A stretch of DNA of 54,475 bases, taken from NCBI GenBank assembly GCA_019084485.1, contig JAHRFU010000012.1:1-54475 (forward strand), written 5' to 3'. This document shows positions 5,263 through 41,212 of the stretch, in pieces. The notes under the pieces were generated by a model. That model had not been told where the DNA came from, made no database searches, and saw only the letters and a program-made list of their open reading frames with translations. The DNA comes from Desulforudis sp. (lineage in GTDB: Bacteria; Bacillota; Desulfotomaculia; Desulfotomaculales; Desulforudaceae). A program made the translations under genes and the position numbers. Positions within the stretch are counted from its first letter, which is position 1, and the number at the start of each line of letters is the position of its first letter.

Positions 5263-5365
5263 GCTGACAGCTCCTTTCGTGTCTTTCTAAAGCAGACTAG
5301 CTGGAACAGTTTGGTATGCTTCTGATGTGGTAATGTATGCACAGTTCTGGGAAGCTGTTACAGGG

Positions 5366-6577
5366 CTAGCCGGAGTTTCCTTTTACGATTTCGCCTACCT
5401 TCACAAACATGAAGACAACAATGCCGGTGGCCAGGGTGAGGCCTGCTACTGACCAACCCATTACCCGGATGCCCGGTTCGAGCAGTAGGCTGAACAGGGG
5501 AGGCCCTCCGGCGACGCCGAAAAACCGGACGCTGCCGTAAAGGGAGGTAATCAGCCCGCGCTTGGCAGTATCCACGCTGGAGGTGATCAGCGTGGTGAGG
5601 CAGGGTAGCATGAGACCGACCCCGATCCCGATAAAGGAAATGGCTGTGAAGAAGAAGTAGGTGTTGTACGACAGGGGCAGAGCGATCAAGGCGGCCGTCA
5701 TCAGGGCCGTACCGCTTATGATCAGGTACTTCATCAGCTTAACCTTTTTCTTGATGAACAGTCCGGTAAGGTAGGCGGTAACCGCCATGAACAAGACCGG
5801 GATGGCTAGGGCGAGGCCCTTGATAATCAAGTTAAGCTCAAAACGCTGGTCTAGATGTTCCGAAAGGAAGAACAGAATTCCGAACAGGGTAAAGAGGGCA
5901 ACGCTTCCGGCGAGGAAACAAGAGAGAAGCATTCCGGTCTTTTTGCCAAAGACCTTAAGAATGTCCTTGAAGTATTTGCCCGCTACGGCCGGTTCCTTCT
6001 GCTTCTTCGGTTCCTTGATCGCCAGCCAGACCAGCACGGCGGCAACAACCGTAAAGACCGGGAAAACGAAGAAAGGAGCAAACCAGATGATCAGGCCCAC
6101 GGCCGCTCCAAGAACCGGGCTGACCACCTTGCCCACACCGTTGGCGGCTTCAATTACGCCAAGCGCTTGGGCCCTGGCCTGCGCCTTGAAGATGTCCCCG
6201 GTGAGAGCCATCGCGATGGGCGCGGTTCCGGCGGCACCAATGCCCTGAATTATTCGGCCGGCTAGGAGTATGGCATAGCTCGCCTCCGTGTCAATCAGCG
6301 CCGCACCGCCGGCGATGAGGCCCCCGATACCGTAGAGGATTAACGCCGGGATGATCACGACTTTCCGACTGAAGTAGTCGGACAGGAAGCCGGATAGTGG
6401 GATGATGATGCCTGCCGGAACGGAGAAGAGAGTGATTACCAGACTGGCCTGGAAGGATGAAATTTCGAGTGCCCGCTGCATTTCCGGCAGGATGGGGATG
6501 AGCATTGAATTACCCAGAACCATTACAAAGGGTACGGAGGAAAGAGCCACCAGTGTCATTGTGTTGCCTTTTGCCAT
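5366..6577 (-). CDS. Major facilitator superfamily transporter, possibly linked to sulfolactate
   Basis: This 403-residue protein has 12 predicted membrane segments. MFS signatures include GFLSDYFSRK between segments 2 and 3 and GRIIQGIGAAGTAP in segment 4, as in drug:proton antiporter-like (12-TMS) exporters. The ATG at 6577 has a perfect AGGAGGT about 9 bases upstream. It is followed by comA on the same strand. In Bacillus subtilis the comA homologue yitD also has an MFS neighbour (yitG), so an anion such as sulfolactate is a reasonable substrate guess. The sequence does not show this, and a generic efflux pump remains possible. Confidence 0.85.
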   Translation of the reverse strand: MAKGNTMTLVALSSVPFVMVLGNSMLIPILPEMQRALEISSFQASLVITLFSVPAGIIIPLSGFLSDYFSRKVVIIPALILYGIGGLIAGGAALIDTEASYAILLAGRIIQGIGAAGTAPIAMALTGDIFKAQARAQALGVIEAANGVGKVVSPVLGAAVGLIIWFAPFFVFPVFTVVAAVLVWLAIKEPKKQKEPAVAGKYFKDILKVFGKKTGMLLSCFLAGSVALFTLFGILFFLSEHLDQRFELNLIIKGLALAIPVLFMAVTAYLTGLFIKKKVKLMKYLIISGTALMTAALIALPLSYNTYFFFTAISFIGIGVGLMLPCLTTLITSSVDTAKRGLITSLYGSVRFFGVAGGPPLFSLLLEPGIRVMGWSVAGLTLATGIVVFMFVKVGEIVKGNSG

Positions 6578-6678
6578 ACACCAAACCTCCTGTGCTTGAC
6601 TAGTTTCCCTCTACGCTTGGGGCTATATGCGCTCAACCACCGGCATACAGTGTATCGATGACGGTGGAGGTGTGCTGC

Positions 6679-6941
6679 ATGGATAAGATCTTACTGGGAA
6701 TGGCTGCTTTGCGTTTTTTGTCTGCTAGTATCGAATTTACGGCCGCGATGCTGATGCTGTATTTTGGGCGGGTCGAAACTGCGTTCAAAATCAATGCCGT
6801 CCTAGCGATGGTCGGGCCGATTGTGCTGATTTCTGTAACCACCCTAGGTCTGGTCGGTTTAGCCGGAAAGGTTTCACGGTGGGAATGCTATCTATTATCA
6901 CCGGGGTGGGATTCATTTTTCTGGGTCTACGCCATCTGTAG
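6679..6941 (+). pseudogene. YqhV-like (DUF2619) small membrane protein, frameshifted
   Basis: The ATG at 6679 follows GGAGG (6664-6668) and opens MDKILLGMAALRFLSASIEF, which continues as a YqhV/DUF2619-like two-segment membrane protein up to about 6875 (LAGKV). Past that point the reading frame turns polar and unfamiliar. The -1 frame resumes a hydrophobic C-terminus typical of the family (MLSIITGVGFIFLGLRHL, stop 6939-6941). A single missing base near 6872-6884 explains both. The gene is a recent frameshift mutant, a sequencing error or, less likely, a programmed frameshift. In Firmicutes yqhV lies among sporulation and cell-wall genes. Its function is unknown. Confidence 0.7.
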
Positions 6942-7030
6942 GGGGAGAAACTAAAATAACTAAAGCCCCGACCCTGCTCTTGACAGCGGACAACCGCTGC
7001 AGTAAACTCTATTGAGGAACAAACCGCCTT

Positions 7031-7124
7031 TAAATCGGCCCCGAGAGGCTGGTAAGGGTAACATAGCGCGACCTTTTCAAGGGTGTACTATGCCTACTTG
7101 CCTTTCCCGGCGGTAGGTTTTTTT
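7031..7124 (+). promoter_or_regulatory. PyrR-binding attenuator upstream of pyrR
   Basis: The leader carries a PyrR recognition hairpin with the conserved CCGAGAGGCTGG loop region (7040-7052). It is followed by an intrinsic terminator: CCTACTTGCC (7093-7102) pairs with GGCGGTAGG (7109-7117) and seven T residues follow (7118-7124). With UMP-bound PyrR holding the first hairpin, the terminator forms and transcription stops. This is the Bacillus-type pyr mechanism and implies feedback by uridine nucleotides. Confidence 0.85.
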
Positions 7125-7136
7125 GTGGGCAGGTGA

Positions 7137-7700
<564 letters not shown>

Positions 7701-7721
7701 GTTGAATCCTTCCTTTTAACA

Positions 7722-7803
7722 GCGGTCCAGAGAGACCGGCAAAGGAAGCCAGAGCGGACTTTGCCGGCCTCTCCCGGATCATTAACGGGAAGAGGCCTTA
7801 TTT
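7722..7803 (+). promoter_or_regulatory. Second PyrR attenuator between pyrR and pyrB
   Basis: GCGGTCCAGAGAGACCGGC (7722-7740) is a near-consensus PyrR hairpin with the TCCAGAGAG loop. It is followed by a terminator whose arms GGCCTCTCCCG (7766-7776) and CGGGAAGAGGCC (7786-7797) pair before TTATTT. As in Bacillus subtilis, this gives a second control point inside the operon. Confidence 0.88.
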
Positions 7804-7821
7804 GTCAGAGGGGGTACGCCG

Positions 7822-8757
7822 GTGAGTATCAAACACCTCTTGGGCCTGGAGCACCTGCCTGTGGAGACGATCACGAAAATCCTGGATACGGCAGGTCCGA
7901 TGAAGCAGATCATCTCCCGTGATCTGAAGAAGGTGCCGACCCTGCGCGGAAAGGCGGTAGCTACCGTCTTTTACGAGCCCAGCACGCGGACCAGGCTGTC
8001 CTTTGAACTGGCCGCAAAGTATTTGAGTGCGGACACCGTCGGCCTGGCTACAGCCTCATCCAGTGTGGTGAAAGGGGAGACCCTGATCGACACCGCCCGG
8101 ACGGTCGCCGCGATGGGTGTGGATGTGATCGTGCTGAGGCACCCGATGTCCGGGGCCGCCGAGTTGATGACCCGCTATACCGATGCCTATGTGGTGAATG
8201 CGGGGGACGGGATGCACGAGCATCCGACCCAGGCCCTGCTCGATATGTTTACCATCCTGGAATCCAAGAACCGGATTTCCGGCCTCAAGGTGGCGATTCT
8301 GGGCGACATCCTGCACAGCAGGGTGGCCCGCTCGAACATCTGGGGTCTTACTAAACTGGGGGCTGAGGTACACGTAGCCGGACCGCCCACCATGCTTCCG
8401 GCGGGTCTGGAGCAGCTCGGAGTGCGGGTGTACGATCGCCCGGAAGCCGCCCTTGAAGGGGCGGACGTGGTGATGGCCCTACGCTTACAACTGGAGCGCC
8501 AGCGCCAGGGACTGATTCCCAGCCTCAGGGAGTATGCCCGGCTGTACGGTTTGAACGCCGAACGACTGGCGCTGACCAAGGACGACGCAGTGGTGCTGCA
8601 CCCCGGCCCGATGAACCGCGGGGTGGAAATTACCGCCGAAGTGGCGGACGGCTCCCGGTCGCTGATCACCGACCAGGTTACAAACGGGGTGGCCGTACGC
8701 ATGGCCTGCCTGTACCTAATGACTGTGGGGGATGCTAGCCGTGAAGATATTGATTAA
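7822..8757 (+). CDS. pyrB: Aspartate carbamoyltransferase catalytic chain
   Basis: This enzyme joins carbamoyl phosphate and aspartate, the committed step of pyrimidine synthesis. The carbamoyl-phosphate loop STRTR is at residues 54-58 within [23 protein letters not shown] near residue 134 and the aspartate-binding [11 protein letters not shown] near residue 256 are present. At 311 residues it is the PyrI-independent trimeric type, and no pyrI is found. The GTG start at 7822 follows a GGGGG ribosome site (7810-7814). The 3' end overlaps the pyrC start region, so the two are translationally coupled within the operon. Confidence 0.97.
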
Positions 8758-10030
8758 AGGTGGAACCGTCTTCGATCCATCAGCCGGAACACTGCGCGAC
8801 CTGGATGTCCTGATTGAGGACGCCCGGGTGATTAAGGTGGAATCCGGGATTAGCGGTCGGGGGGCTATCGTCCTGGACGCGTCTGGGATGCTGGTTTCGC
8901 CAGGTCTGATTGATATGCACGTTCATCTGCGTGAACCCGGATACGAGTACAAGGAGACCATCGCCACGGGTACCGCGGCGGCACTGAGTGGAGGGTTTAC
9001 AGCCGTAGCGGCAATGCCGAACACCAACCCGGTGGCGGATAACCCGGCGATTATCGAGTTTATCAGGAAGCAGGCTGCGGCGGCCGCCAACGCCCGGGTC
9101 TACCCGGTCGGTGCGATCACCAGGGGCCTGGAGGGGAATGTACTGGCCGAGATGGGGGAGATGCACGCCGCTGGTGCGTTGGCCTTCAGCAATGACGGCC
9201 GGCCCGTGGTTTCGGCCGGGGTGATGCGGCGGGCGATGCAGTATGCTCGGATGGTCGGGGTACCGATCATCTCCCACTGTGAGGATGATACACTGGTCGA
9301 CGGCGGAGTGATGAGTGAGGGCCTGACCGCCAGTGTGCTCGGCCTTAAAGGGATTCCGGCGGCGGCCGAAGAGGTAATTGTGGCGCGTGACCTGCTGTTG
9401 GCGGAGACCACCGGATGTGCCCTGCACGTGGCCCACGTGAGCACCGCCGGTTCGGTACGGCTGATCCGCGAAGCGAAGCGGCGCGGAGTGCCGGTTACAG
9501 CCGAGGCCACAGCGCATCATTTCGTACTCACGGACGAGGCGGTAGCGGGGTACAACACGAGTGCCAAGGTAAATCCTCCCCTGCGGTCCAGGACGGATGT
9601 CCAGGCGGTGCTGGAGGGCTTGGCCGATGGTAGCATCGATGTGATCGCTTCGGACCATGCGCCGCACGCGGATTATGAGAAGGCCGTGGAATTCGACCAG
9701 GCCGCGATGGGACTAGTCGGATTGGAAACGACGCTTGGGTTGGTATTTACCTACCTTGTAGAACCTGGGGTACTGACAGCGGCGGAAGCTCTAACGCGTT
9801 TGACCGCCAACCCGGCCCGGATCCTGGGTTTGCCGGAAACGGTGCTGAAACCTGGGGCCGTGGCGGACATTACGGTTATTGATACCCATTGTGAATGGGA
9901 AGTGGATCCCAACCGTTTCCTGAGTAAGAGTCAAAACACGCCCTTTGCCGGTTTCAAGCTGCGGGGGCAGGCAGTGGCCACCATCGTGGCCGGAAAGATT
10001 CGAAAGCACTCAGGAGTTAGGAGTCAGTAG
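8741..10030 (+). CDS. pyrC: Dihydroorotase (class I)
   Basis: This zinc amidohydrolase cyclises carbamoyl aspartate to dihydroorotate. The metal-binding HVHLREPG is at about residues 60-67. The later histidines in ISHCED and [11 protein letters not shown] and the catalytic aspartate in VIASDHAPH are all present. GTG 8741 is preferred because GTGGGG lies 8-14 bases upstream and gives the family's MKILIKGG-type N-terminus. An ATG at 8732 in the same frame is possible. The start overlaps pyrB by 17 bases. The last residues (HSGVRSQ) come from the left arm of an inverted repeat, suggesting the original C-terminus was replaced or extended by a repeat insertion. Confidence 0.96.
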
Positions 10031-10096
10031 TCAGAATGAAAGAACGGGTTACGGTTTGTACGTCTTTATTCTGAATTCTGACTACTGACTCCTGAC
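10016..10096. repeat. Inverted repeat (22-bp arms) between pyrC and carA
   Basis: GTTAGGAGTCAGTAGTCAGAAT (arm 10016-10037) faces its near-perfect complement at 10075-10096, with one mismatch in 22 and a 37-base spacer. Within each arm a motif of the form AGGAGTCAGTAGTCAG is built of short GTCA/GTAG units. The left arm encodes the last residues and stop of pyrC. It could be a REP/MITE-like dispersed element or a hairpin in the polycistronic mRNA. There is no T tract, so it is not a normal terminator. Confidence 0.85.
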
Positions 10097-10124
10097 TACC
10101 TAATCATTACGGAGGTGTTGTTGA

Positions 10125-11207
10125 TTGCAGGCGGTACTGGCACTGGAAGACGGAACCCTGTACTATGGCCGGGCCATCGGGGCTACGGGGGAAAACTGGG
10201 GCGAGGTAGTCTTTAATACCGGAATGGGCGGGTACGAGGGTGTACTGACCGATCCCTCCTACTGCGGCCAGATCGTGGTGATGACCTACCCGCTGATCGG
10301 AAACTACGGAATCAACGCCGAAGACTTTGAATCCAAGAGGTCGTATGTCAGGGGATTTATAGTCCGCGACGCCTGTGCGATCCCGAGCAACTGGCGTTCC
10401 CAGGGTACCCTGGAGACTTTCCTCAGGCAGCAGAATGTTATCGGACTGACCGAAGTGGACACCCGGGCGATTACCCGGCGTATCCGTACCGAAGGTACGA
10501 TGCGGGGAATCATCGCCACGGGCAATGTCGACGGTCGCCTGCTTTCCATACGCGCCCGCGAGGTACCCGACCTCAGCGACCAGCACTTCATCCCGGAAGT
10601 AACGGTGGAGGAGATTCAAACCATTCCCGGAACCGGCGGTCCCCGCATCGCCATCCTTGACCTCGGGGCCAAAGAGAATATCGCCCGCTGCCTCCGCGAA
10701 CGCGGCTGTGAAGTGGTGGTGTTCCCGGCATCGACCAGTGCCGAGACCATCGCCGGGTATCACCCCGATGCGTTGCTGGTCTCCAACGGCCCCGGTGACC
10801 CGCTACGCGCGGATTACGCTGTGGACACCATCAAACAGTTCGTCGGCAAGATACCGCTGTTCGGGATCTGCTTCGGCCACCAGCTCCTGGCGCTGGCGCT
10901 CGGCGCACGCACCTATAAACTGAAGTTCGGACACCGGGGAGCAAACCATCCGGTACAGGATCTGGCTACCGGGCTGATCGCTATCACCACACACAATCAC
11001 GGGTTCTCCGTTGATGAGCAGTCCCTGTTGGATGCCGGTCTGGTGGTCACCCACCGGAACCTGAATGACAAGACGGTGGAGGGCTTTAAGCACCCGGAAC
11101 TCCCGATTGTCGGCATCCAGTTCCATCCCGAGGCCTCTCCGGGCCCCCGGGACGCGAATTACCTCTTTGACGAATACCTTGCACTTCTGCAGCAGGAGGC
11201 GAAGTAG
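10125..11207 (+). CDS. carA: Carbamoyl phosphate synthase small (glutaminase) subunit
   Basis: CarA hydrolyses glutamine and passes ammonia to CarB. The N-terminal CPSase small-chain domain (NTGMGGYEGVLTDPSY, residues 31-46) is followed by a class I glutamine amidotransferase domain. Its nucleophile Cys249 lies in GICFGHQ, and the His/Glu pair is in IQFHPEASPGP near residue 340. The start is TTG 10125, with GGAGGTG (about 10111-10117) upstream. The stop abuts the carB ATG, so the two subunits are made together. The 360-residue length is normal. Confidence 0.97.
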   Translation: MQAVLALEDGTLYYGRAIGATGENWGEVVFNTGMGGYEGVLTDPSYCGQIVVMTYPLIGNYGINAEDFESKRSYVRGFIVRDACAIPSNWRSQGTLETFLRQQNVIGLTEVDTRAITRRIRTEGTMRGIIATGNVDGRLLSIRAREVPDLSDQHFIPEVTVEEIQTIPGTGGPRIAILDLGAKENIARCLRERGCEVVVFPASTSAETIAGYHPDALLVSNGPGDPLRADYAVDTIKQFVGKIPLFGICFGHQLLALALGARTYKLKFGHRGANHPVQDLATGLIAITTHNHGFSVDEQSLLDAGLVVTHRNLNDKTVEGFKHPELPIVGIQFHPEASPGPRDANYLFDEYLALLQQEAK

Positions 11208-30362: not shown

Positions 30363-31451
30363 ATGAACTACGCGATCAGTATCGTGCTCGCTACGGCAAT
30401 TCTCTTCGTCCCTTCGATCACCGCCGAGCACGCCCGCCAGGACGCCTGGCTCTCGCTACCCCTGGCCGGTGCCTTCGGCGCCCTGGTGACGTACATTGCA
30501 GTCCGCTTGGCCCTGCGCTTCCCGGGAGAGACGGTTGTCCAGTACACGCCGCGGGTACTTGGGCCGGTAATCGGGAAACTGGTCGGTTTCATTTACGTTT
30601 ACTATTACCTGTTCGTCGCCTACTTCGTGCAGCGGGAGTTTTCGGAACTGATGAACGCGGCCTACCTTGAGCGTACACCGATGATCGTCATTATCATCGT
30701 GCTGACAGCCTTGGCCGTCTACTTGCTTTACCAGGGGCTGGAGGTCCTCTGCCGGGTGAACACGGTCGTGCTTTGGAGCATGATTGGCGCCATCTTTCTG
30801 ATTGTTATGTTTGGAATCAAGGAGGTCCGGCTGGAGGAGTTCCTCCCGGTGCTTGATAACGGGCCCGGGCCGGTAATCCTTGGGGCGGTCGCCCCCGGTT
30901 CCTGGTTCGGGGAAACGACAGTGATCCTGATGCTCATGCCCTTTATCCTTGCAACCGACCAGCCTCGCATGGTGAAGTTCAACCTCCTGGCGGTGCTGAT
31001 CCTCTTCCTGGTCTTACAGATGATCGTCGTGGCCGCCGTGGGCCAGTTCGGGGCCGAGCAGGCAGCAACCAAGCTATTCCCGACCCTCGCCCTCGCGCGG
31101 CACGTTGACATCCCGGAACTGCCCATCTTCTCACGCCAGGACGCCGTGTTCATGGTCTTCTGGGTGGCGGGAATGCTCTTCAAACTCACCACCTTCTTCT
31201 ACGCGGGTACGCTGGCCCTCGCCCAGTGGCTAAACCTCAAGGACTACCGGCCCCTGATCCTGCCCCTGGCGGTGGTCATCACTGCCCTGTCTTTCCATGC
31301 GTGGATCGATATCGCCGAGCTTAAGTCCTTCTCCGGGGAGGTCTTCCCCTTTGCCATTTCCTTTGTACAGTTTTTCCTCACTGGGCTGATCCTGGCTGTG
31401 GCCGTATTCCGGGGCATCAGACCGCAGCCCGGGAAGGGGGGAGGGACTTAG
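30363..31451 (+). CDS. gerKB: Spore germination receptor permease-like subunit (GerB/GerAB family)
   Basis: This is the integral membrane B subunit of a GerA-type germinant receptor in the spore inner membrane. It has about ten hydrophobic segments and the amino-acid-permease-like fold of the spore germination permease family. ATG 30363 is the first standard start. However, the same frame runs upstream through REEGKISGFQA, the conserved N-terminus of the family, with GAGGGGG at 30308-30314. Translation therefore probably begins near 30324 on a CTG or another unusual codon. It is first in a gerB-gerA-gerC operon. The germinant is not predictable, and the K symbol is generic. Confidence 0.9.
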   Translation: MNYAISIVLATAILFVPSITAEHARQDAWLSLPLAGAFGALVTYIAVRLALRFPGETVVQYTPRVLGPVIGKLVGFIYVYYYLFVAYFVQREFSELMNAAYLERTPMIVIIIVLTALAVYLLYQGLEVLCRVNTVVLWSMIGAIFLIVMFGIKEVRLEEFLPVLDNGPGPVILGAVAPGSWFGETTVILMLMPFILATDQPRMVKFNLLAVLILFLVLQMIVVAAVGQFGAEQAATKLFPTLALARHVDIPELPIFSRQDAVFMVFWVAGMLFKLTTFFYAGTLALAQWLNLKDYRPLILPLAVVITALSFHAWIDIAELKSFSGEVFPFAISFVQFFLTGLILAVAVFRGIRPQPGKGGGT

Positions 31452-31452
31452 C

Positions 31453-33105
31453 ATGCCGAAGCGCAAACGACGACTCGTTACCCGCCGGCTGAGCGAGATA
31501 CTGCGAGAGGCGCAACAGAAGAGAAACGCGGCGGAGGATGAGTCGACTGTTTCGGCGGACGAGGCCGTCAACGAGACCTACCACTACGACCAGCTTGACC
31601 AAATGCCCCTTTCCGCGTCTTTGGCCCAGAACATCGCTGTCTTAAAGCGGGTTTTTGTGGACAGCCCCGGCTTTAACGTCCGCGAGTTCTTGATCGCCGG
31701 GAAAATTCCGGCAGCTGCCGCCTTCGTTGAGGGCATGGTTGACACCTTATTGGTAAGTGCCAATATCCTAAGGCCGCTGATGCATTACACCCGGGACGAA
31801 CCGGTACCCCAGGGGAAAGGCCTCTTGGAAATAGTCCAGTTTGCCGGGATAACCACCGCCGCGGTACGTACACGGGATACCATCGGGGAAATAGTTCGAG
31901 ACGTACTGGAAGGCGGGGTAGTCCTGCTCCTGGACCAGGAATCACGGGCCTTATCGACGGAAGTTGCCGGGTTCCAAACCCGCTCCATCGAGGAACCGGT
32001 TAGCGAAAGCGTGGTCCGCGGCCCGCGGGAGGGTTTTACCGAGTCCCTGGCTGATGGCCTGAGCCTGGTTCAGCGCCGCCTGAAGAGCCCTAACTTGGCG
32101 GTTGAGAACCACTTCCTGGGCCGGGAAACGCATACCCAGGTCTCGGTATTGTACATCAAGGGGCTGGTTAACCCGGAGCACCTCGCCGAATTGAACCGCC
32201 GCTTAAAACGGATCAGCAACAATATCGACGGGGTGCTGGAGAGTTCTTACCTCGAGGAGATGATCGCCGATCAGCCGCTATCCCCTTTCCCGCAGGCTCT
32301 GAACACTGAACGGCCCGACAGGGTGGCCGCGGCCCTGCTGGAGGGACGGATAGCGATCCTGCTCGAGAATACGCCTTTTGCCCTCGTTGTACCCTTTGAG
32401 TTCCAGGCTCTGATGCACGCTTCGGAAGACTACTACCAGAACTACTGGTTTGCGACGGCAATCCGCATCCTGCGCTATGTTTCCCTGATCATCGCGCTGA
32501 TCGGCCCGGCGGTTTACGTGGCCATCACGACCTTCCACCAGGAGATGCTCCCGGAAGCCCTGCTTTTTCAGGTCGTGGCTGCGCGCCAGGGGGTACCCTT
32601 CCCGGCGGTGATCGAGATGCTGCTGATTGACTACGCCTTTGAGCTCCTACGCGAGGCCGGAATCAGGTTGCCGCGTCCGGTGGGCCAGGCGGTGTCCATC
32701 ATCGGCGCCCTGGTCATCGGCCAGGCCGCGATTCAGGCCGGGCTGACCTCACCCCTGGCCGTAATCATCGTGGCCATTACCGGGATCGCCTCCTTTGTTG
32801 TGCCGGCATTTTCCATGGCCTTCACGCTGCGCTTGATCCGCTTCCCCCTGACCATTCTGGGGGGTATACTGGGCCTCTACGGGGTGATTGCCGGGGTGCT
32901 GGCCATCGTCATCCATATGGCCGGTCTGCGCACACTGGGGCTGCCGTATTTCGGGGGTTTTGCCCCCCAACACGTCTCGGACCTTAAGGACTCGATTGTA
33001 CGCTTTCCCTGGTGGGCGATGCGCGGTCGGCCGCACGAACTCTCGAAGCGCAACCAGCAGCGACAGACACCGGACCTTAAACCAAGACCTGAGGGCGGTA
33101 GGTAA
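31453..33105 (+). CDS. gerKA: Spore germination receptor subunit A (GerA family)
   Basis: The A subunit has 550 residues, the usual length. An N-terminal cytoplasmic domain (about residues 1-330) carries the conserved DSPGFNVREFLI near residue 70 and LYIKGLVNPEHL near residue 235. The membrane domain has about five segments, with PLSPFPQALNTERPD near residue 277 and QAAIQAGLTSPLAVIIVAIT near residue 425. It starts at ATG 31453 next to the gerB stop, with a GGGGGGAGGG site. A 70-base internal piece of this gene recurs at 41213-41281. Confidence 0.95.
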   Translation: MPKRKRRLVTRRLSEILREAQQKRNAAEDESTVSADEAVNETYHYDQLDQMPLSASLAQNIAVLKRVFVDSPGFNVREFLIAGKIPAAAAFVEGMVDTLLVSANILRPLMHYTRDEPVPQGKGLLEIVQFAGITTAAVRTRDTIGEIVRDVLEGGVVLLLDQESRALSTEVAGFQTRSIEEPVSESVVRGPREGFTESLADGLSLVQRRLKSPNLAVENHFLGRETHTQVSVLYIKGLVNPEHLAELNRRLKRISNNIDGVLESSYLEEMIADQPLSPFPQALNTERPDRVAAALLEGRIAILLENTPFALVVPFEFQALMHASEDYYQNYWFATAIRILRYVSLIIALIGPAVYVAITTFHQEMLPEALLFQVVAARQGVPFPAVIEMLLIDYAFELLREAGIRLPRPVGQAVSIIGALVIGQAAIQAGLTSPLAVIIVAITGIASFVVPAFSMAFTLRLIRFPLTILGGILGLYGVIAGVLAIVIHMAGLRTLGLPYFGGFAPQHVSDLKDSIVRFPWWAMRGRPHELSKRNQQRQTPDLKPRPEGGR

Positions 33106-33180
33106 AGAGCCGGGAGACGTGACTGATACTAACAACGGTGCCATCAAGCTCCATAAACTGTTTTGGAGGTTCCGCTGGAT

Positions 33181-34413
33181 ATGGCAGGTAATAGAATAGC
33201 ACGGTTCTGCCTGTTCATTATTGCTCTCCTCGTAATCGGGGGGAGCATGGGCGGGTGCTGGGACAAGAGGGAGGCCGAGGACATGGGCTATGTCCGGGCA
33301 ACGGCGCTCAATTCCGCTCCTAGCGGAAAGGTCCTTCTGCTCGCCCAGGTACCGAACCCGGCCACCTTCGCGGGCGGCGGGATGGCGGCGATCACCCCCG
33401 GCGCCAGCCAGGACGCCAAGGCTTACCGTAACTTCGAGGCCGAGGGGTCCACGGTCTTCGAGGCCATCCGGCAACTGGCCATCCAGGCCCCACGGCGGCT
33501 CTTCTGGGCGCAGAACACCCTGATCATCTTTTCTGAAGGGCTGGCACGGCAGGGTATCGAAGGTCATCTGGATTTCTTTGAGCGGAGCGTGGAAATCCGG
33601 CGCCGCTTAAACCACGTCCTCGTTACTCCGAACGACCCACGCGTCCTTCTGGATGTCCCTGCTCCGCATGAAACCGTCCCGGGGGGACGCATCGAGCGTA
33701 TTATTATGCAGGAGCAGCAGACGTCACGCTTTGCCGTGGTAAGCCTGAGCGCGTTTCTGCGGATGCTTGCTACCGAGGGGCAGGATGCCTACTGTGGCGT
33801 TGTGCGGGCACAGAAAAACCCAGCCCGTCCGGCCCTGGTGCAGCAGGTTAATGCACCGGAACCTGCCCTGACTATTGAGATGAGCGGTGCCGCCGCCTTC
33901 CGTGGCACCCGGTTCGCCGGTTACCTTACCGAGCGTGAAACACAGGGTCTCCTGTGGGCACGAAACGAAATAAGGGGAGGCCCTGTCACCGTTCCGAGTC
34001 CATCCGGAACTGGGCGGGTAACCTTAGATATACTGCGCGGAAAGGGCCGCATAATTCCCGCCATTCAAGACGGGAGGCTTCTGGCTACGGTAGAGATTAC
34101 CGATGTAGTGGCCGAGTTGGTCCAGAGCGAGGCCCCGCTTGATTTAACCCGTTCCGAGGTCCTGCGCACTCTTGAGCATGCGCTGGCGCGGGAGATCGAG
34201 CGAGAGGTAATCGCGGCGGCCAACAAGTCTCAAGCTCTAGGTGCCGACGTACTTGGGGTAGGGGCGGCATTCCACCGGAAGCTCCCCCGGGAGTGGCGGG
34301 AGATTAAGGAAAACTGGCCGGAGATCTTCCCCACCGTGGAAATCACGGCTAGCGCCGAGGCCACGATCCGCCGTATGGGCTTCACCCTGAAGGGGATTAC
34401 CATCAAGGATTAG
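33181..34413 (+). CDS. gerKC: Spore germination receptor lipoprotein (GerC family)
   Basis: The C subunit is a lipoprotein on the outer face of the spore inner membrane. The signal peptide ends in a lipobox, IGGSMGGC, with the lipidated cysteine near residue 27. The mature start CWDKREAEDMGYV is diagnostic for the family, and the C-terminal part contains REWREIKENWPEIFP. ATG 33181 is chosen because GGAGG (33165-33169) is 11 bases upstream. The 410-residue length is normal. It is the third gene of the receptor operon and a substrate of Lgt and LspA. Confidence 0.94.
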   Translation: MAGNRIARFCLFIIALLVIGGSMGGCWDKREAEDMGYVRATALNSAPSGKVLLLAQVPNPATFAGGGMAAITPGASQDAKAYRNFEAEGSTVFEAIRQLAIQAPRRLFWAQNTLIIFSEGLARQGIEGHLDFFERSVEIRRRLNHVLVTPNDPRVLLDVPAPHETVPGGRIERIIMQEQQTSRFAVVSLSAFLRMLATEGQDAYCGVVRAQKNPARPALVQQVNAPEPALTIEMSGAAAFRGTRFAGYLTERETQGLLWARNEIRGGPVTVPSPSGTGRVTLDILRGKGRIIPAIQDGRLLATVEITDVVAELVQSEAPLDLTRSEVLRTLEHALAREIEREVIAAANKSQALGADVLGVGAAFHRKLPREWREIKENWPEIFPTVEITASAEATIRRMGFTLKGITIKD

Positions 34414-35136: not shown

Positions 35137-38100
35137 CTAATTTATAGAATCGGAAATCTTCTTTTTAGCACGCCAATAACCTGCCAGGAGTACCAGCGCC
35201 AGCCCTGCGGCCGCCAACAACGCCCAGAAATTCACTGCCGAGGCGCTCCGCCCCTGACCATCTTCCGGGGTCTGCAATTCGTATGCTCTGGGCTGAGCGG
35301 CGGCCTTTTGGCCCTCTTTCGAATCGTCCCCTGCGCTGGCCCCGGCCCCGGTCTGTTCCGTTTCCGTTAGCAAAGCCAGCCGCCAAACAACGGTCGGTGG
35401 CCTTTCCGCCGCGTAACCAAGCGCCAGCTCCCTCTCCGTGGCGCGGTGGAATATTTCCGCGAATTTCCGCTGCTTGCCGCCGGGCAGGCTGGAAAACTGG
35501 GCCAGCCACTCATTGAAAACCACGTTGGCGCAGGTGTGGTGGCAGCATACCACGCCGTACTCCAGCACACTCTCCAGGTACGTGTCGGCGAGTCTGCCCA
35601 GCATCTCCCGGTCCGTCTGCCACATTTCCCGCCGGGCCGCCTCCAACCCCCAGCCGGTTATCGCCTGATGTACGTAGGGGGTAAGGCGGCTGTTTACCTT
35701 CGGGTCCAGCACCAACTTTTCCATCGTTTGCCGCCAGGTCCAGTCGTCCACCGCATCCATAGTGGCGTCCACACCGAAAAGGTGGGCCACATGTTTGCTA
35801 ATCTCCGTAGCGCCGGAATACCCTTCGGCCAGCATGCCGTCAATCCACTGGGGATTGAGCAGTCTGGTGCGCACTTCGGTGCCCAGGAAGCGGTCAAAGC
35901 TCTGGATGCGCGGCGCGCCACCCTGTCTCGTATTAATAATGAAACTATCCACATCCCGGCCTGCTGCTTCTTTTACCGCCAGGCTCAACCCTCCCAGGTA
36001 CTGGTAAACATCGTCGTTGTCGAGTACGCCGTAAAGTGAATCCCGCACTTGCGCGGTGACCTCCACATTCCGCAAAACGCGCCGAAAAGCCTCGCCTCCC
36101 TCCAGCCCGTACGCCTCCACGCCGTAAATGTAGCCCATCCGGTTCAGATAGGTCTCCGCCAGTTCGGAGCGATCTTCCCAGGCCGTGGTAGCCTCGACCA
36201 TCGCCGCCACGCCGGTGCCGTAGCTCCCGGGCGCCTCGCTGAAAATCCTGGCGCCGGCAAGCCGGTGCGCCTCGTCCGGCGTCAGCCCCTGCTGCTGATA
36301 ATACAACAAATCCTGCTGCTGATGCCTTTTCAGCAAATTGTCCTCCGGGCTTTCCGCCAACGCCATGGTATCCCGCAGCGTCTGGTCCAACATCTCGGCC
36401 AGGTTAGCGAAGGTGTCGCGGAAAAGCCCCGACATGGTCACCACCACGTCCACTCTGGGCCGGCCCAATTCATCCAGAGGCGTAAACTCCACCCCGGTCA
36501 CCCGGCCCCGTTGGTCCCACTGGGGCTCGGCGCCCACCAAGCGCAGAATCATGGCCACCGTCTCCCCCTGAGTGCACATGGTCTCAATGGCCCACAGCAC
36601 TACACCAACTTTCTCCGGGTAACGGCCGTGAACTTCCCGGTACTCCCGCAACAGGCCGTCGGCCGCCTGTCGGCCCGTTTCCCAGGCCGCCTTGTCGGGT
36701 ACCGTACGGGGATCAAACGAGAAAAAGTTGGCGCCGGTGGGCAGCGCATCGGGAATCCGCACCGGGTCTCTTCCCAGGCCGGGGGACACGTACTCGCCCC
36801 GCAGAGCCTTGAGCAGGCTTTCCAGTTCGCGATCAGTCGCCAGCAGTTTTTCCCGCAGTTCGTCCGCCGCACCCCGGCGCACCACCGGGTCGTAACCGAT
36901 CATGGCCTCGATCATTCTCTCCAGCACCGCGCCGGACGGCGCCCGGCCCAGGGTATGCAGGCCGTAGGGCATCAGCTCCGTGGTCAGCTCCGCCAGGTAG
37001 TCATCCAGCACGGCTACCACGTCCGCGAAAGAATCCCTTCCCAGGTCCAGGCCGAGCACCTGGTCCAGGTTATTCTCTTTGACCCGGGCCAGAATCTCCT
37101 TTTGCAGCGCCACCACCCTTTCAGCCTTGCCCCGGTTTTCAGCCGCATCCAGGTAACCCAGCTTTTCCTGCAGCCCGGCCAACTCACCGTAAAGTTCCGG
37201 GCGCACCACAGGCGGGATCAGGTGGTCGATGATCACGGCGTACCCCCGGCGCTTGGCCTGAGTTCCTTCGCCTGGGTTGTTGACGATGTAAGGGTAGATA
37301 TTGGGCAAGTCTCCCAGCACCACGTCCGGCCAGTCGTCTCCGCCCAGCCCCACGCTACGCCCGGGCAGCCATTCCAGGGTGCCGTGGGTGCCCAGGTGGA
37401 CGACGGCGTCGGCGCCGAACTCCCGCTGTAACCAGAAGTAATAAGCCAGATACTGGTGTGTGGGCGGTAAATTCGGCGAATGGGTGATCTTGTCCGGATC
37501 GTCAGCCCAACCGCGCATGGGCTGTGGCCCGATAAAGACGTTCCCCAGCACCATCCCCGGAATTACCAGCCTGTCCTCGAGAACCATAATGGTACCGGGA
37601 GCCGGTCCCCATTCAGCCAGCACCTGCTGCTGCATCTCCACCGGCAGGGTACGAAACCACTGCCGATAATCGTCCACCGCCACGGTAATCACTCCCTGCC
37701 GGAACAGGCTTTTCAGCTCCCCGGGAGCCCAACTACCGACGTTGCGACCGACGGTCATCATTTTCTCCAGTAATTTTTCCGCGGGCAGCTCTTCCGGCGC
37801 CCGGTAACCGTCCTCCCGCAGGGCGGTTAAAACCGCGGCCAGGCTTTGGGGTACATTGAGATACGAAGCGCTGATGCCGTCCTTGCCGCCGCTGTAATTG
37901 TAATAGACCAGGGCCACTTTTTTCTCCGCGTTGGGCTTTTGCCTCAGTTCCGCCCACTTCAAGGCCCTGGCCGCCAGCCGGTCCACCCGGTCCGGCAAGG
38001 AAACCTTCTTGATAACCGGAGCCCCGGTGCCCGGGTCGACACCTTGTTCGTCCGCTCCCCCCATCAACACGGGTTCGATTCTGCCTTCCAACTCCGGATA

Positions 38101-39093
38101 AGCGATCTGCCAGTAGACTTCATTCGACAATCCGGCAGGGTTGTTTCGCCAGTCCTCTAGGTTGCCGGCATATACCGGAGCAAAAACAGGGATGTCGAGC
38201 TTTTGAAACAGTTCCACTCCGGCTTCCGGCCTGCCATAAACAAAATTAAAACCGCTCGCCGCCAGCAGTACATCAATGGCTGCACTGTCACCCTTCATGA
38301 AAAACTGCTCTACTGCGCCAACCTTGTCCTTGGCAAACACCAGCATGGCATTGGCACCCTGCTGTTCCAGGGCATTAACCAGATCTTCGTACATTTCTAT
38401 ATCATCATTTTTGTAAAAGCTGTCATAGGTCAGGATGCCGATCCATGGGGCTCCTTCCCTGTACCTCCCGGACTGCTGGTACCATTCGAGGTATTCTACC
38501 CTGCTGCCAAAGGTTTGCCCGGCATCAGGGTGGTGTAGGAAATTTTCGGGTAAATTAACCGGGGTATAGTCTTCAGTTACCTCCACTTCCGTATGCTCTG
38601 CCAGCAGGTAAAGCAGCAGGCGGCTCATATTCTCCTTTCCACCCTGATCAAAGTATTCTCCGAGTATGGCGTCTTCCGAATCGTCAATCCGTGGCAAACG
38701 CGGGAATTCGATGCTCTGCGTGCTGAGGATTTTCACCGTGTCCGGAAGCGGCGGCACCACCGTGTGCAACGCCGCGGCGGTATCCATGCCCACCATTTGC
38801 AGCAATACCACATCCGCATCCTCCAACTCCCGGGCTAGCTCTTGCTCTCCTTCCAATCCGGTTACCTGTTCACCGCTAAAGATGCGTAACCGAAAAAGAT
38901 ATCCCTGATCCCCCAGTTTGCGGTAAGCGGCGGTCAGGGCAGAAAAAAACCCGGTACTGTTCGCCACGACCACTATCTTTACTTCTTCAGGCGCGGCCGT
39001 CAGGGCATCACCTTGAGGAACAGCTCCCAGCAAAAGAACAAGCAGCAAAATCCACGTCAATTTCTGCCGGCTGCGCCGCCATAAACCTGGCAT
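35137..39093 (-). CDS. Exported, membrane-anchored CobN/HmuS-like chelatase-family protein
   Basis: A 1318-residue member of the CobN/ChlH/BchH family, which inserts or removes metals in tetrapyrroles. An N-terminal signal peptide (LTWILLLVLLLGAVPQGDA, residues 12-30) and a C-terminal membrane helix (about 1289-1305, then WRAKKK) place the whole enzyme outside the cytoplasm, unlike cytoplasmic CobN of aerobic B12 synthesis. The core motif HLGTHGTLEWLPG is at 566-578. VVCCHHTCAN (1181-1190) is a cysteine/histidine cluster, typical of archaeal and HmuS-type relatives as I recall. No CobS/CobT or ChlI/ChlD ATPase is nearby. It is the last gene of a riboswitch-controlled operon with an ExbB-like channel, so metal removal from, or handling of, corrinoid or haem at the surface is the best guess. 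Confidence 0.87.
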   Translation of the reverse strand: MPGLWRRSRQKLTWILLLVLLLGAVPQGDALTAAPEEVKIVVVANSTGFFSALTAAYRKLGDQGYLFRLRIFSGEQVTGLEGEQELARELEDADVVLLQMVGMDTAAALHTVVPPLPDTVKILSTQSIEFPRLPRIDDSEDAILGEYFDQGGKENMSRLLLYLLAEHTEVEVTEDYTPVNLPENFLHHPDAGQTFGSRVEYLEWYQQSGRYREGAPWIGILTYDSFYKNDDIEMYEDLVNALEQQGANAMLVFAKDKVGAVEQFFMKGDSAAIDVLLAASGFNFVYGRPEAGVELFQKLDIPVFAPVYAGNLEDWRNNPAGLSNEVYWQIAYPELEGRIEPVLMGGADEQGVDPGTGAPVIKKVSLPDRVDRLAARALKWAELRQKPNAEKKVALVYYNYSGGKDGISASYLNVPQSLAAVLTALREDGYRAPEELPAEKLLEKMMTVGRNVGSWAPGELKSLFRQGVITVAVDDYRQWFRTLPVEMQQQVLAEWGPAPGTIMVLEDRLVIPGMVLGNVFIGPQPMRGWADDPDKITHSPNLPPTHQYLAYYFWLQREFGADAVVHLGTHGTLEWLPGRSVGLGGDDWPDVVLGDLPNIYPYIVNNPGEGTQAKRRGYAVIIDHLIPPVVRPELYGELAGLQEKLGYLDAAENRGKAERVVALQKEILARVKENNLDQVLGLDLGRDSFADVVAVLDDYLAELTTELMPYGLHTLGRAPSGAVLERMIEAMIGYDPVVRRGAADELREKLLATDRELESLLKALRGEYVSPGLGRDPVRIPDALPTGANFFSFDPRTVPDKAAWETGRQAADGLLREYREVHGRYPEKVGVVLWAIETMCTQGETVAMILRLVGAEPQWDQRGRVTGVEFTPLDELGRPRVDVVVTMSGLFRDTFANLAEMLDQTLRDTMALAESPEDNLLKRHQQQDLLYYQQQGLTPDEAHRLAGARIFSEAPGSYGTGVAAMVEATTAWEDRSELAETYLNRMGYIYGVEAYGLEGGEAFRRVLRNVEVTAQVRDSLYGVLDNDDVYQYLGGLSLAVKEAAGRDVDSFIINTRQGGAPRIQSFDRFLGTEVRTRLLNPQWIDGMLAEGYSGATEISKHVAHLFGVDATMDAVDDWTWRQTMEKLVLDPKVNSRLTPYVHQAITGWGLEAARREMWQTDREMLGRLADTYLESVLEYGVVCCHHTCANVVFNEWLAQFSSLPGGKQRKFAEIFHRATERELALGYAAERPPTVVWRLALLTETEQTGAGASAGDDSKEGQKAAAQPRAYELQTPEDGQGRSASAVNFWALLAAAGLALVLLAGYWRAKKKISDSIN

Positions 39094-39108
39094 AGAGAAA
39101 ACCTCCCC

Positions 39109-39456
39109 CTAATTCTCAATCAAAATCAATTTGCCTGTTTCCGGATCCTGATAGACCGTACCTAGCTCCTGGTAGCCACTGCCGGAGCCGGGGCCCGTAT
39201 TAGGTAATTCTTCCAGTTCCCGGCCCTTCTCCACGGTCACCACCTGCTGGATAGTCTGCAACAACTCCTGCCTACGAGCGGCATCCATTTCGCTGGTGAA
39301 AATATCCTGCAAATTCCAGGACAAAACCAGGGCCACCAAAAGGCCACAGACAAAGACCAACATCACGTCCACCATGTTGGCCAAACCTCGCAGGGGATCG
39401 TTATCCCCGTCCGATGCCAACCAGCGTTTTTTCCTTCGACGCAGCAACGGTTTCAC
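39109..39456 (-). CDS. DUF2149 protein, ExbD/TolR-like
   Basis: This small single-pass protein starts at GTG 39456 with a basic stretch (LLRRRKKRW), then NDPLRGLANMVDVMLVFVCG, one membrane helix (to about residue 45), an extracytoplasmic helical part and the ending YQELGTVYQDPETGKLI, typical of DUF2149. The NMVDVMLVF motif closely parallels the VDVMLVLL of ExbD/TolR, whose aspartate carries protons; here it is Asp30. It overlaps the ExbB-like gene by 56 bases, indicating coupled translation. TTG 39420 in the same frame is another possible start but would cut into the basic part. Confidence 0.82.
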   Translation of the reverse strand: MKPLLRRRKKRWLASDGDNDPLRGLANMVDVMLVFVCGLLVALVLSWNLQDIFTSEMDAARRQELLQTIQQVVTVEKGRELEELPNTGPGSGSGYQELGTVYQDPETGKLILIEN

Positions 39457-40081
39457 CCCCGGCCTGTAATAGATGCTCCAGCAATAATTCCAAATCCTCC
39501 AGATAAGAACGGTACCAGCGACGCCTGGTCTGCGAGACAAGGTAGGCAAGGCCTCCGGCAGCCAGTCCGGCCACCGTAGTGTCAAAAGCAATAATAATCG
39601 CCTGAGCGAGGGCCTGCAGATCCCCCTGACCCAGGGCCGCCAAGCCGGGGCCCAGCGGGATAAGGGTACCCATCAGGCCCAATATCGGACCCACGCGGGC
39701 GATAAGGTCCGTTTTGGCCAGTGTCCTTTCCAGCCTTCTTTCTTCTTCCTGCAAGAGGTTATCTGCGATCAGGCGGTTTCGTGCCTGGTTTTCACCCTGC
39801 CGGTGCTTAAAACCGTGCACAACCGCCTTGTAAGCAGGAAAAAGCAGCCCTCTTTTCTCCCACTGTTCCCACGTTCCCGGAACAAAGTCGGTATCCAGCA
39901 ATTCTTTTACAGCGGCGCCCCGATGTTCTTTACGCTGCTGCCGTTCGGCCAGTAGCCCGCCCAGGTGCAGCAGAGCCTGTATCAACAGGACGATTAGGCC
40001 TACAATAACCGGAATAAGCAGGCTCTGGGCCATAACGTGCAATCCGGCGGTTAAATACTCGGAACCCGGGACAATGGCCAT
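39401..40081 (-). CDS. MotA/TolQ/ExbB-type proton channel protein
   Basis: The 226-residue protein has an N-terminal membrane helix (about 18-40), a cytoplasmic loop rich in charge (about 45-125) and two further helices with the family signature RVGPILGLMGTLIPLGPG followed by AIIIAFDTTVAGLAAGGLAYL. ExbB-type proteins use proton flow to drive movement in partner proteins. The gene begins at ATG 40081, 7 bases after the DUF2162 stop. In this monoderm there is no TonB or outer membrane, so the partner is presumably the exported CobN-like protein. No flagellar genes are nearby, which argues against MotA. Confidence 0.88.
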   Translation of the reverse strand: MAIVPGSEYLTAGLHVMAQSLLIPVIVGLIVLLIQALLHLGGLLAERQQRKEHRGAAVKELLDTDFVPGTWEQWEKRGLLFPAYKAVVHGFKHRQGENQARNRLIADNLLQEEERRLERTLAKTDLIARVGPILGLMGTLIPLGPGLAALGQGDLQALAQAIIIAFDTTVAGLAAGGLAYLVSQTRRRWYRSYLEDLELLLEHLLQAGGETVAASKEKTLVGIGRG

Positions 40082-40087
40082 AACTAA

Positions 40088-40768
40088 TTAACAACCCCTT
40101 CCCATTTGCCTTTTCTTGATGAAATAACCACTCAGCACCACAACCATAACCAGGATAAGGTTCACACCGGCGACCAGGGCGTTCACCTCCAGCGGTTCCA
40201 GCGGCACCTGCAGTACGGCGACAACATTGGGTGTCACCAGGGCAAAAGCCAGGGTCATCACGCCCAGCGTAAACAGAAGCCCGTTAAACAAGCGGTGCGT
40301 GGCATATTTCAATCCTCCGGCCATAAGACGCGTCAAGAGACTTACCGCCAGCACCAGCAAAGCAAAAACACCTGCTACCGTGACACCCCAGTTAAGCGCA
40401 AAGCCGCCATCCGGCAGGGGCAGCATAATCACCATCAGCGCCAAAGCCAGCACGCAAAATGGACACGGCAGCAGACCCCATAACCTGGCGCCGCCACCCT
40501 GGCAACTCCGGCTTGGAACCTGAAGGGATAAATAAATCAGCAAGCAGGCCATTAGCAGTCCGCCCACAAAGGTATAGTTGTCGATAAAAACCGTCAGGGT
40601 TGCCGCCCGGTCTTTAAACAAAAAACTTAAAAGCCACAACCCCGTACCGAGGGACAATGAGTAGATGACAAGTATGGACCTTCCCAGTCCGGAACTACCC
40701 AGCAGCAATCCCGACTTGACGCCGAGCAGAGCAATGGCGCCCAAAACACTCTCCAGGGTCCCGATCAA
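40088..40768 (-). CDS. DUF2162 multi-pass membrane protein
   Basis: A 226-residue protein with about six hydrophobic segments, matching the DUF2162 putative transporter family, which was described mainly from methanogens and found next to CobN, ExbB-like and DUF2149 genes. The segment LLPCPFCVLALALMV near residue 110 has a cysteine pair likely to sit in the membrane. TTG 40768 has AAAGGGTGA about 10 bases upstream. First gene after the cobalamin riboswitch. It could carry metal ions or a tetrapyrrole, but the substrate is unknown. Confidence 0.8.
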   Translation of the reverse strand: MIGTLESVLGAIALLGVKSGLLLGSSGLGRSILVIYSLSLGTGLWLLSFLFKDRAATLTVFIDNYTFVGGLLMACLLIYLSLQVPSRSCQGGGARLWGLLPCPFCVLALALMVIMLPLPDGGFALNWGVTVAGVFALLVLAVSLLTRLMAGGLKYATHRLFNGLLFTLGVMTLAFALVTPNVVAVLQVPLEPLEVNALVAGVNLILVMVVVLSGYFIKKRQMGRGC

Positions 40769-40796
40769 TCCGCATCACCCTTTCAAAAACCAAGAC

Positions 40797-40828
40797 AAAA
40801 AAACAAAACCCTGCCTACACGGCAGGGG
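40797..40828 (-). terminator. Terminator of the cobalamin riboswitch leader
   Basis: On the minus strand CCCTGCC and GGCAGGG (40809-40815 and 40821-40827) form a 7-bp stem with a 5-base loop, followed by TTTTGTTTTTTT. It lies between the riboswitch and the first gene, so it is probably the expression platform that stops transcription when B12 is bound. Confidence 0.85.
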
Positions 40829-40892
40829 CAAATGCACTAAAAAACAACGCACCAACCACCCCCCTATCCGCGTAGGGTACAGTGTTACCTAA

Positions 40893-41064
40893 GAAACAAG
40901 CAGGTTTCCTGGCTCGGGGATCACCGCGTACTCCACACCTTCCCGGGAAAAACCCAGTGGCCTTCTGTGGAACCGCTACCCCCTTACAGTGGCGGGACCG
41001 CGCCGGACTTGCACCGGCTTCCCTCTCTTCCACCCCCGTAACCGGTGATGGAATCACTTGTTTC
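40893..41064 (-). promoter_or_regulatory. Cobalamin (AdoCbl) riboswitch
   Basis: Reading the minus strand, GGGAAGCCGGTGCAAGTCCGG (core around 41000-41020) followed by CGCGGTCCCGCCACTGTAA contains the B12 box GCCACTG at 40987-40993. CCAGGAAACCTGC near the 3' end is also typical. The outer stem is formed by GAAACAAG (5', 41057-41064) and CTTGTTTC (3', 40893-40900). This class represses downstream genes when adenosylcobalamin or a related corrinoid is plentiful, so the operon serves cobalt or corrinoid supply. Confidence 0.93.
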
Positions 41065-41076
41065 GATCAGACATTT

Positions 41077-41106
41077 ATTAAATTACCCGGAACCTTGCAT
41101 ACTCAA
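41077..41106 (-). promoter_or_regulatory. Promoter of the riboswitch-controlled operon
   Basis: Minus-strand -35 TTGAGT (41101-41106) and -10 TTTAAT (41077-41082) are 18 bases apart. The expected start near 41070 is a few bases upstream of the first riboswitch stem. Confidence 0.6.
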
Positions 41107-41212
41107 CTATTACCAATTCTAATACGTACACCTGTTATTGTCCATAATCAAAGTAGCATGATCAATGAGGCGTTCGCCGACGTGCTGGTGGAGGGCGATG
41201 CCTGTGGTCAGA

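Follow-up and report, generated by a model that had tools for sequence, protein, structure and literature searches.

An exported CobN-like protein with an ExbB-DUF2149 pair under a cobalamin riboswitch in Desulforudis: a candidate corrinoid-acquisition operon of a single-membrane bacterium

The window considered here is a stretch of 54,475 nucleotides from the genome of Desulforudis sp. (GenBank assembly GCA_019084485.1, contig JAHRFU010000012.1, positions 1 to 54,475 of the forward strand). It carries on its minus strand, from 41144 to 35137, a four-gene operon that encodes a DUF2162 membrane protein, an ExbB-like proton channel protein, a DUF2149 protein and a large exported CobN-like protein, and that is preceded by a cobalamin riboswitch (Table 1). 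An initial annotation had proposed this gene set, its order and its B12 riboswitch; gene order and coordinates match in our analysis, and the identities are borne out by matches to Pfam and RF00174, with all four proteins passing the Pfam gathering scores that served as the cut-off. The CobN-like protein is matched by the NCBIfam models of both CobN and BchH, of which BchH alone attains its cut-off, and barely. The start of DUF2149 is probably close to 39456 and not at 39591.

Table 1. Positions of the operon, its control elements and motifs in the window, and of molybdenum cofactor (Moco) riboswitches beside related operons in other loci.
Feature	Position	Strand	Basis or remark
Promoter-like site TGGACA-17-TAGAAT	41116..41144	-	consensus scan alone, 10/12 positions matching
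Cobalamin riboswitch aptamer RF00174	40882..41076	-	118.7 bits (gathering score 31.5), E 3.1e-29, full-length model
Intrinsic terminator-like hairpin and T-run, putative expression platform	40809..40827	-	consensus match alone; between riboswitch and first gene
DUF2162 membrane protein, 226 amino acids	40088..40768	-	PF09930, 88.1 bits
DUF2162 PCPxC motif, residues 101-105	~40454-40468	-	invariant in 14/14 homologues, in membrane segment
MotA/TolQ/ExbB-like proton channel protein, 226 amino acids	39401..40081	-	PF01618 (MotA_ExbB), 49.5 bits
DUF2149, ExbD-like partner	39109..39456	-	PF09919, 72.3 bits; open reading frame (ORF) readable from 39591
Exported CobN-like (BtuS/HmuS-type) protein, 1318 amino acids	35137..39093	-	PF02514 (CobN-Mg_chel), 1121.4 bits
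HLGTHG motif, H566-G571	37381..37398	-	H570 aligns with essential His538 of HmuS
Asp1028, motif LDNDDVYQYLGG	36010..36012	-	replaces HmuS His1209; direct alignment with 9d26 and 7c6o
CCHHTC motif, C1183-C1188	35530..35547	-	between chelatase domain and membrane anchor of CobN-like protein
RF01055 Moco/tungsten-cofactor riboswitches	L079 9126-9248; L082 1212-1328; L091 1024-1142		beside ExbB-DUF2149 operons
RF01055, continued	L093 17386-17504; L094 2176-2296 and 8446-8565; L097 4878-5001		beside ExbB-DUF2149 operons
RF01055, continued	L134 9226-9357; L152 7048-7179; L181 6707-6822		beside ExbB-DUF2149 operons

Of 398 genomes sampled from the phylum, 34 encode DUF2149, as do 18 of 60 relatives; the named relative closest to the host is a Desulforudis genome from a metagenome (L102, 96% in DUF2149). 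We distinguish a class 1 of loci, with strong DUF2149 scores and mostly the full four-gene set, from a class 2 of ExbB-DUF2149 pairs that lack a full CobN. The initial annotation had pointed to a search for the four-gene set and its riboswitch across Firmicutes, and the linkage was found: RF00174 lies upstream in 12 of the 17 class 1 neighbourhoods of Firmicutes, several of which have two in tandem. A scan of named genomes yielded 80 loci, 65 of them CobN-bearing, and with a model built from 16 cobalamin riboswitches, taken from these operons and from the host, 49 of the 65 proved to have a riboswitch upstream on the same strand (43 by script and six in which the ORF caller had set the gene start 5' of the riboswitch or a further ExbB pair stood in front). 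The distance between riboswitch and gene set ranges from ~50 nucleotides to 6 kb and is longest where other corrinoid genes intervene. We estimate the chance of a riboswitch near a random locus at a few per cent, given the handful per genome, and the pairing of riboswitch and gene set is not a chance association, since it recurs in many genomes. Betaproteobacterial loci have CobN-ExbB-DUF2149 without DUF2162, which joins the set in Firmicutes. The view that related sets are not under B12 riboswitches, put forward in the initial annotation, is not supported: most of the Firmicutes and betaproteobacterial sets found are under one, and in an Hmu-like operon of Bacteroides fragilis the same gene kinds are under a cobalamin riboswitch (PMC10100974).

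Hydropathy places a signal-like hydrophobic segment at residues 12-34 of the CobN-like protein and a C-terminal transmembrane (TM) segment at 1283-1307 with a basic tail after it, and most homologues share the signal segment and the anchor. From this arrangement the chelatase domain should face outward, in keeping with the extracytoplasmic location first proposed for it. Relatives in the PDB are CobN (7c6o), ChlH (4zhj) and HmuS (9d26), the last a haem dechelatase (PMC12583661) whose His538 is essential for haem demetallation (PMC12583661). The His at the H570 position is retained as HxG(T/R)H across the aligned exported homologues, and the notion that proteobacterial copies had lost it was ruled out by alignment, which shows HxGRHS retained. 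The match to His538 extends over the whole superfamily, so it appears weak as a mark of HmuS. At the second site the HmuS motif LSLDHxxEFMGG, with His1209 and Glu1212, gives way in the window to LDNDDVYQYLGG, with Asp1028 and Gln1031; Asp also occupies the second-ligand position in the CobN of known structure (7c6o alignment), and proteobacterial copies have DNND at this motif, likewise without His. These residues argue against an HmuS-like bis-His haem site and would fit a CobN-like corrin pocket, the substrate being presumed. The N-terminal part aligns only weakly with 9d26 (E 0.026), in the region of the HmuS haem ligands Met79 and His254 and the Met-rich insertion. Variants of the protein were also encountered. 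In L083 (9856-11226) and L095 (6810-8216) a short exported CobN fragment (~460 amino acids, the C-terminal half of the domain) lies directly 5' of ExbB-DUF2149, in L083 adjoining BtuCD-type ATP-binding cassette (ABC) genes, and Carboxydocella thermautotrophica (L070/L111) has a tandem second exported CobN with an HmuS-like CSENSC and with HLGRHA replacing HLGTHG.

A putative proton motor at the side of CobN, in lieu of an ATPase partner, as the initial annotation had it, is supported. DUF2149 has a single TM segment with an N-x-VD-VMLVF motif and an extracytoplasmic tail, and its Asp58 (numbering of the ORF from 39540) is invariant and lies in NxxDxxLVF, a motif resembling the membrane motif of ExbD; hhalign gives a weak relationship to ExbD itself (P 5e-4, probability 32%, 27 columns over the TM segment). 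Omp85 was detected in none of eight Firmicutes genomes, the host included, with diderm controls positive, and ExbD was detected neither in the host nor in genome G109. The absence of both indicates that the host is a monoderm, as had been supposed. Its three other cobalamin riboswitches lie upstream of NrdD, of CbiM and cbi genes (CbiX among them) and of two ThiC-like genes, together a normal corrinoid-starvation regulon. Since the host encodes CbiX, CobN is not needed for cobalt insertion. Two more CobN genes of the host, on contigs C120 (L009) and C132 (L010), lack signal and anchor; the C120 copy is neighboured by ChlI-type, VWA (ChlD-type) and BtuF/BtuC-type genes, and the start of C132 holds a stretch resembling the ChlD-type gene of C120.

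Gene neighbourhoods bear on the substrate. In Methylobacillus (L143) a riboswitch is followed by genes for a BtuB-type TonB receptor, BtuR, CobB/CbiA, CobN, ExbB and DUF2149, and a BtuF-type protein and CobU are encoded close by; in Massilia (L156) a riboswitch is followed by genes for CobN, ExbB, DUF2149 and a TonB-dependent receptor. BtuF-, BtuD- and BtuC-type genes lead into DUF2162-ExbB-DUF2149-CobN in L074, and in L061 and L063 S-layer (surface-layer) alpha-alpha toroid proteins are encoded immediately 3' of CobN, together in L061 with a DUF4430 protein. An alpha-alpha toroid combined with DUF4430 is the domain arrangement of transcobalamin and of intrinsic factor. The presence of DUF4430 in transcobalamin has been described (PMC4350170). 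These BtuB, BtuR, CobB, BtuFCD and transcobalamin-like contexts are those of corrinoid handling, and they favour corrinoid acquisition over haem. FmdE-like proteins also recur near the set (L060, L069, L070, L072 and L123), in several cases with nickel/peptide-type ABC genes, and a recurrent small protein, marked by the motif xVxDGQGGGIGK in its N-terminal part, is encoded beside B12 riboswitches (L011 4807-5256, L060 6445-6873, L070 10891-11352).

The motor also exists without CobN. Under strict hydropathy criteria, 23 of 39 CobN-less pairs adjoin a gene whose product is large and exported and has a C-terminal TM segment and mostly a basic tail, and in this respect the class 2 proteins resemble the CobN of class 1. 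Class 2 operons encode S-layer, immunoglobulin (Ig)-like and Oxidored_molyb-like domains, some with a component of an energy-coupling factor (ECF)-type transporter. Moco riboswitches were found at 9 of ~36 CobN-less loci scanned, immediately 5' of ExbB in L134 and L152, and four CobN-less loci are under B12 riboswitches (L086, L092/L126, L127 and L158); in L158 (Emergencia timonensis, 4681-10378) the pair adjoins toroid/DUF4430 transcobalamin-like surface proteins. It is possible that the RF01055-linked operons serve surface uptake of molybdenum cofactor. The association of one motor with two kinds of cofactor riboswitch speaks for uptake, more than for dechelation, as the general function of the motor. 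Tentatively, and with rather less than even confidence, we extend this to a general TonB-like proton motor of single-membrane bacteria that would act on C-terminally anchored surface proteins to take up large metal cofactors: corrinoids by way of exported CobN-like proteins (B12 riboswitches) and molybdenum or tungsten cofactor by way of molybdopterin-domain-like surface proteins (Moco riboswitches).

DUF2162 appears to travel with a feature of CobN. Firmicutes copies have CCHHTC between chelatase domain and anchor, where HmuS has CSGFVC and where betaproteobacterial copies have no Cys motif, and the presence of a Cys pair agrees with that of a DUF2162 neighbour in 76 of 78 cases (30/2/0/46). 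Both exceptions are the same tandem CobN beside a DUF2162 operon, a single locus present in two collections. One genome with both kinds fits the rule (L075/L112 without the Cys pair, L076 with it), although the covariation as a whole is confounded by phylogeny. A thiol relay between the CobN Cys motif and DUF2162 would be a guess. Kinship of DUF2162 with DsbD/CcdA was considered and rejected, hhalign to DsbD_TM being not significant (probability 3.5%), and a fold search with its AlphaFold model (predicted local distance difference test, pLDDT, 70) returned nothing below E 0.1.

Taken together, we consider it an even bet that the operon encodes a machine for corrinoid acquisition that is produced under B12 scarcity; we infer the substrate, the action of the motor on CobN, the hand-over and the role of DUF2162. 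With B12 bound to the riboswitch, transcription would end, and without it the four genes would be expressed. The CobN-like protein, held outside the cytoplasmic membrane by its C-terminal helix, would bind a corrinoid in its chelatase cleft, and ExbB with DUF2149, as a proton-driven membrane motor, would open, distort or release this protein, where its cytoplasmic relatives depend on an AAA+ ring (CobS/CobT, ChlI/ChlD). The corrinoid would then pass to an importer, e.g., BtuFCD; in Firmicutes, DUF2162 and the CobN Cys motif may act in this hand-over, perhaps as a thiol/redox step or a permease. Where the initial annotation had spoken of a surface corrinoid or haem dechelatase or import machine, the neighbourhoods and the riboswitch uphold the corrinoid-related role, and the haem option is disfavoured by the Asp in place of the second HmuS His and by the corrinoid neighbourhoods.

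Several observations weigh against acquisition. The window's own operon has no importer gene; CbiC and CbiD are present in 15 and 13, respectively, of 16 host genomes of the set, so that most hosts have the means of corrinoid synthesis, and what they seek may be cobalt and not B12; HmuS, the relative studied best, acts as a dechelatase; the aligned exported homologues keep a catalytic chelatase His that a pure binder would not need; and a set in Pseudomonas aeruginosa (PA1922-PA1925: TonB receptor, CobN-like, ExbB/ExbD-type and DUF2149 proteins) differs from the window in being under Zur (zinc) control (PMC9431628). The retained His and the HmuS precedent (PMC12583661) would suit a corrinoid dechelatase or cobalt scavenger, an unlikely reading in which the exported protein strips cobalt from corrinoids or other cobalt tetrapyrroles by proton drive and the metal enters via a CbiMNQO-type or nickel/peptide-type ABC transporter for de novo B12 synthesis. 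The corrin rings made by most hosts, the host CbiM/cbi operon under a B12 riboswitch, and the CbiM-like gene, FmdE and peptide/nickel-type ABC genes close to several copies would suit it too. However, the BtuB, BtuR, CobB, BtuFCD and transcobalamin-like neighbours indicate intact corrinoids, and acquisition is a better fit than dechelation, since the motor also occurs without CobN under B12 and Moco riboswitches. To our knowledge, moreover, there is no enzyme that strips cobalt from an intact corrin, which also counts against dechelation.

It is improbable that the operon scavenges some other metal chelate (zinc, nickel), with B12 a mere proxy for cobalt status: the Zur-regulated P. aeruginosa set and the FmdE and nickel/peptide ABC neighbours are in line with this, but most lineages examined have B12 riboswitches and not metal-responsive sites. 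Quite improbable is a proton-driven extracellular insertion of cobalt into imported or external metal-free corrins, with ExbB-DUF2149 replacing CobS/CobT. The CobN-type Asp as second ligand would agree with it, as would BtuR/CobO and CobB, genes flanking the late-insertion step of the aerobic pathway, which precede CobN in the Methylobacillus operon; against it, the hosts use the early-cobalt route (CbiD, CbiX), and, apart from a few phototrophs, organisms rarely contain metal-free corrins. Biosynthetic cobalt insertion was rejected on export, the host CbiX and the lack of an AAA+ partner alongside. That the operon encodes a haem dechelatase of the HmuS type that serves iron supply, the riboswitch being incidental, is highly improbable, for although its gene kinds are those of hmuSTUV (PMC10434189) and a C-terminal Cys pair is shared with HmuS, the B12 riboswitch is conserved across phyla, His1209 and Glu1212 of HmuS have become Asp and Gln, and the neighbourhoods are those of corrinoids.

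Energy coupling by TonB/ExbB is usually regarded as powering the outer membrane. Should an ExbB-type motor prove to drive surface cofactor capture in bacteria that have no outer membrane, energy-coupled uptake would be wider than believed, and many genes annotated as CobN would gain a different role. One means of competition for B12 among anaerobes and methylotrophs would also be revealed, B12 being a major nutrient shared in microbial communities.

Elsewhere in the window there are a selenocysteine tRNA gene (2166-2259) and, at 30363-34413, proteins that resemble, from a reading of their sequences, spore germination receptor subunits of the GerAB, GerAA and GerAC types, consistent with a spore former.

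Among known systems, the family called BtuS, a third and exported type of CobN proposed for metalloporphyrin salvage (Rodionov 2003, via PMC6460266), has been studied in Bacteroides. Its CobN/Mg-chelatase domain, signal and C-terminal anchor, and company of ExbB and DUF2149 are all found in the window, and the accessible text of that literature does not describe a monoderm form or the pairing of DUF2162 with Cys. The hmuYRSTUV operon includes ExbB and DUF2149 (PMC10434189), and HmuSTUV of Bacteroidota has, like the window, an exported anchored CobN-like protein, a membrane protein, an ExbB-like protein, DUF2149, the His538 equivalent and a C-terminal Cys pair. The window differs in its monoderm host, in having no TonB receptor or HmuY, in its B12 riboswitch, in the Asp for His1209 and in DUF2162 as the occupant of the membrane-protein slot. 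The B. fragilis Hmu-like operon, unlike the window, belongs to a diderm and has TonB receptors. In the cobN-exbB-exbD-tonB cluster on pSZ77 of Geobacter lovleyi (PMC3403914) CobN likewise lacks CobS/CobT and adjoins a proton motor, along with cobalamin genes, but the cluster is from a diderm and has annotated TonB/ExbD. CobNST and ChlHID share with the window protein the chelatase fold and HxG(T/x)HG, but they are cytoplasmic and AAA+ driven, whereas the window protein is exported and the host AAA+ genes lie instead beside the C120 CobN, one of two CobN genes of this cytoplasmic kind in the host (C120 and C132). In Dehalobacter restrictus, operon-2 is a B12-riboswitch operon with CobN and BtuCDF-type genes, the first gene of which rises 346-fold on corrinoid starvation (PMC4285132); its CobN is paired with Mg-chelatase subunits, as at the C120 locus of the host, and that of the window with ExbB-DUF2149. 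In the searchable literature, with most subscription papers outside the search, the monoderm form, the tracking of the Cys motif with PCPxC and the Moco-riboswitch class appear to be new. The BtuS/HmuS proteins and the Hmu-like operon under a B12 riboswitch are known precedents, and it is to this BtuS/Hmu kind that the operon of the window belongs.

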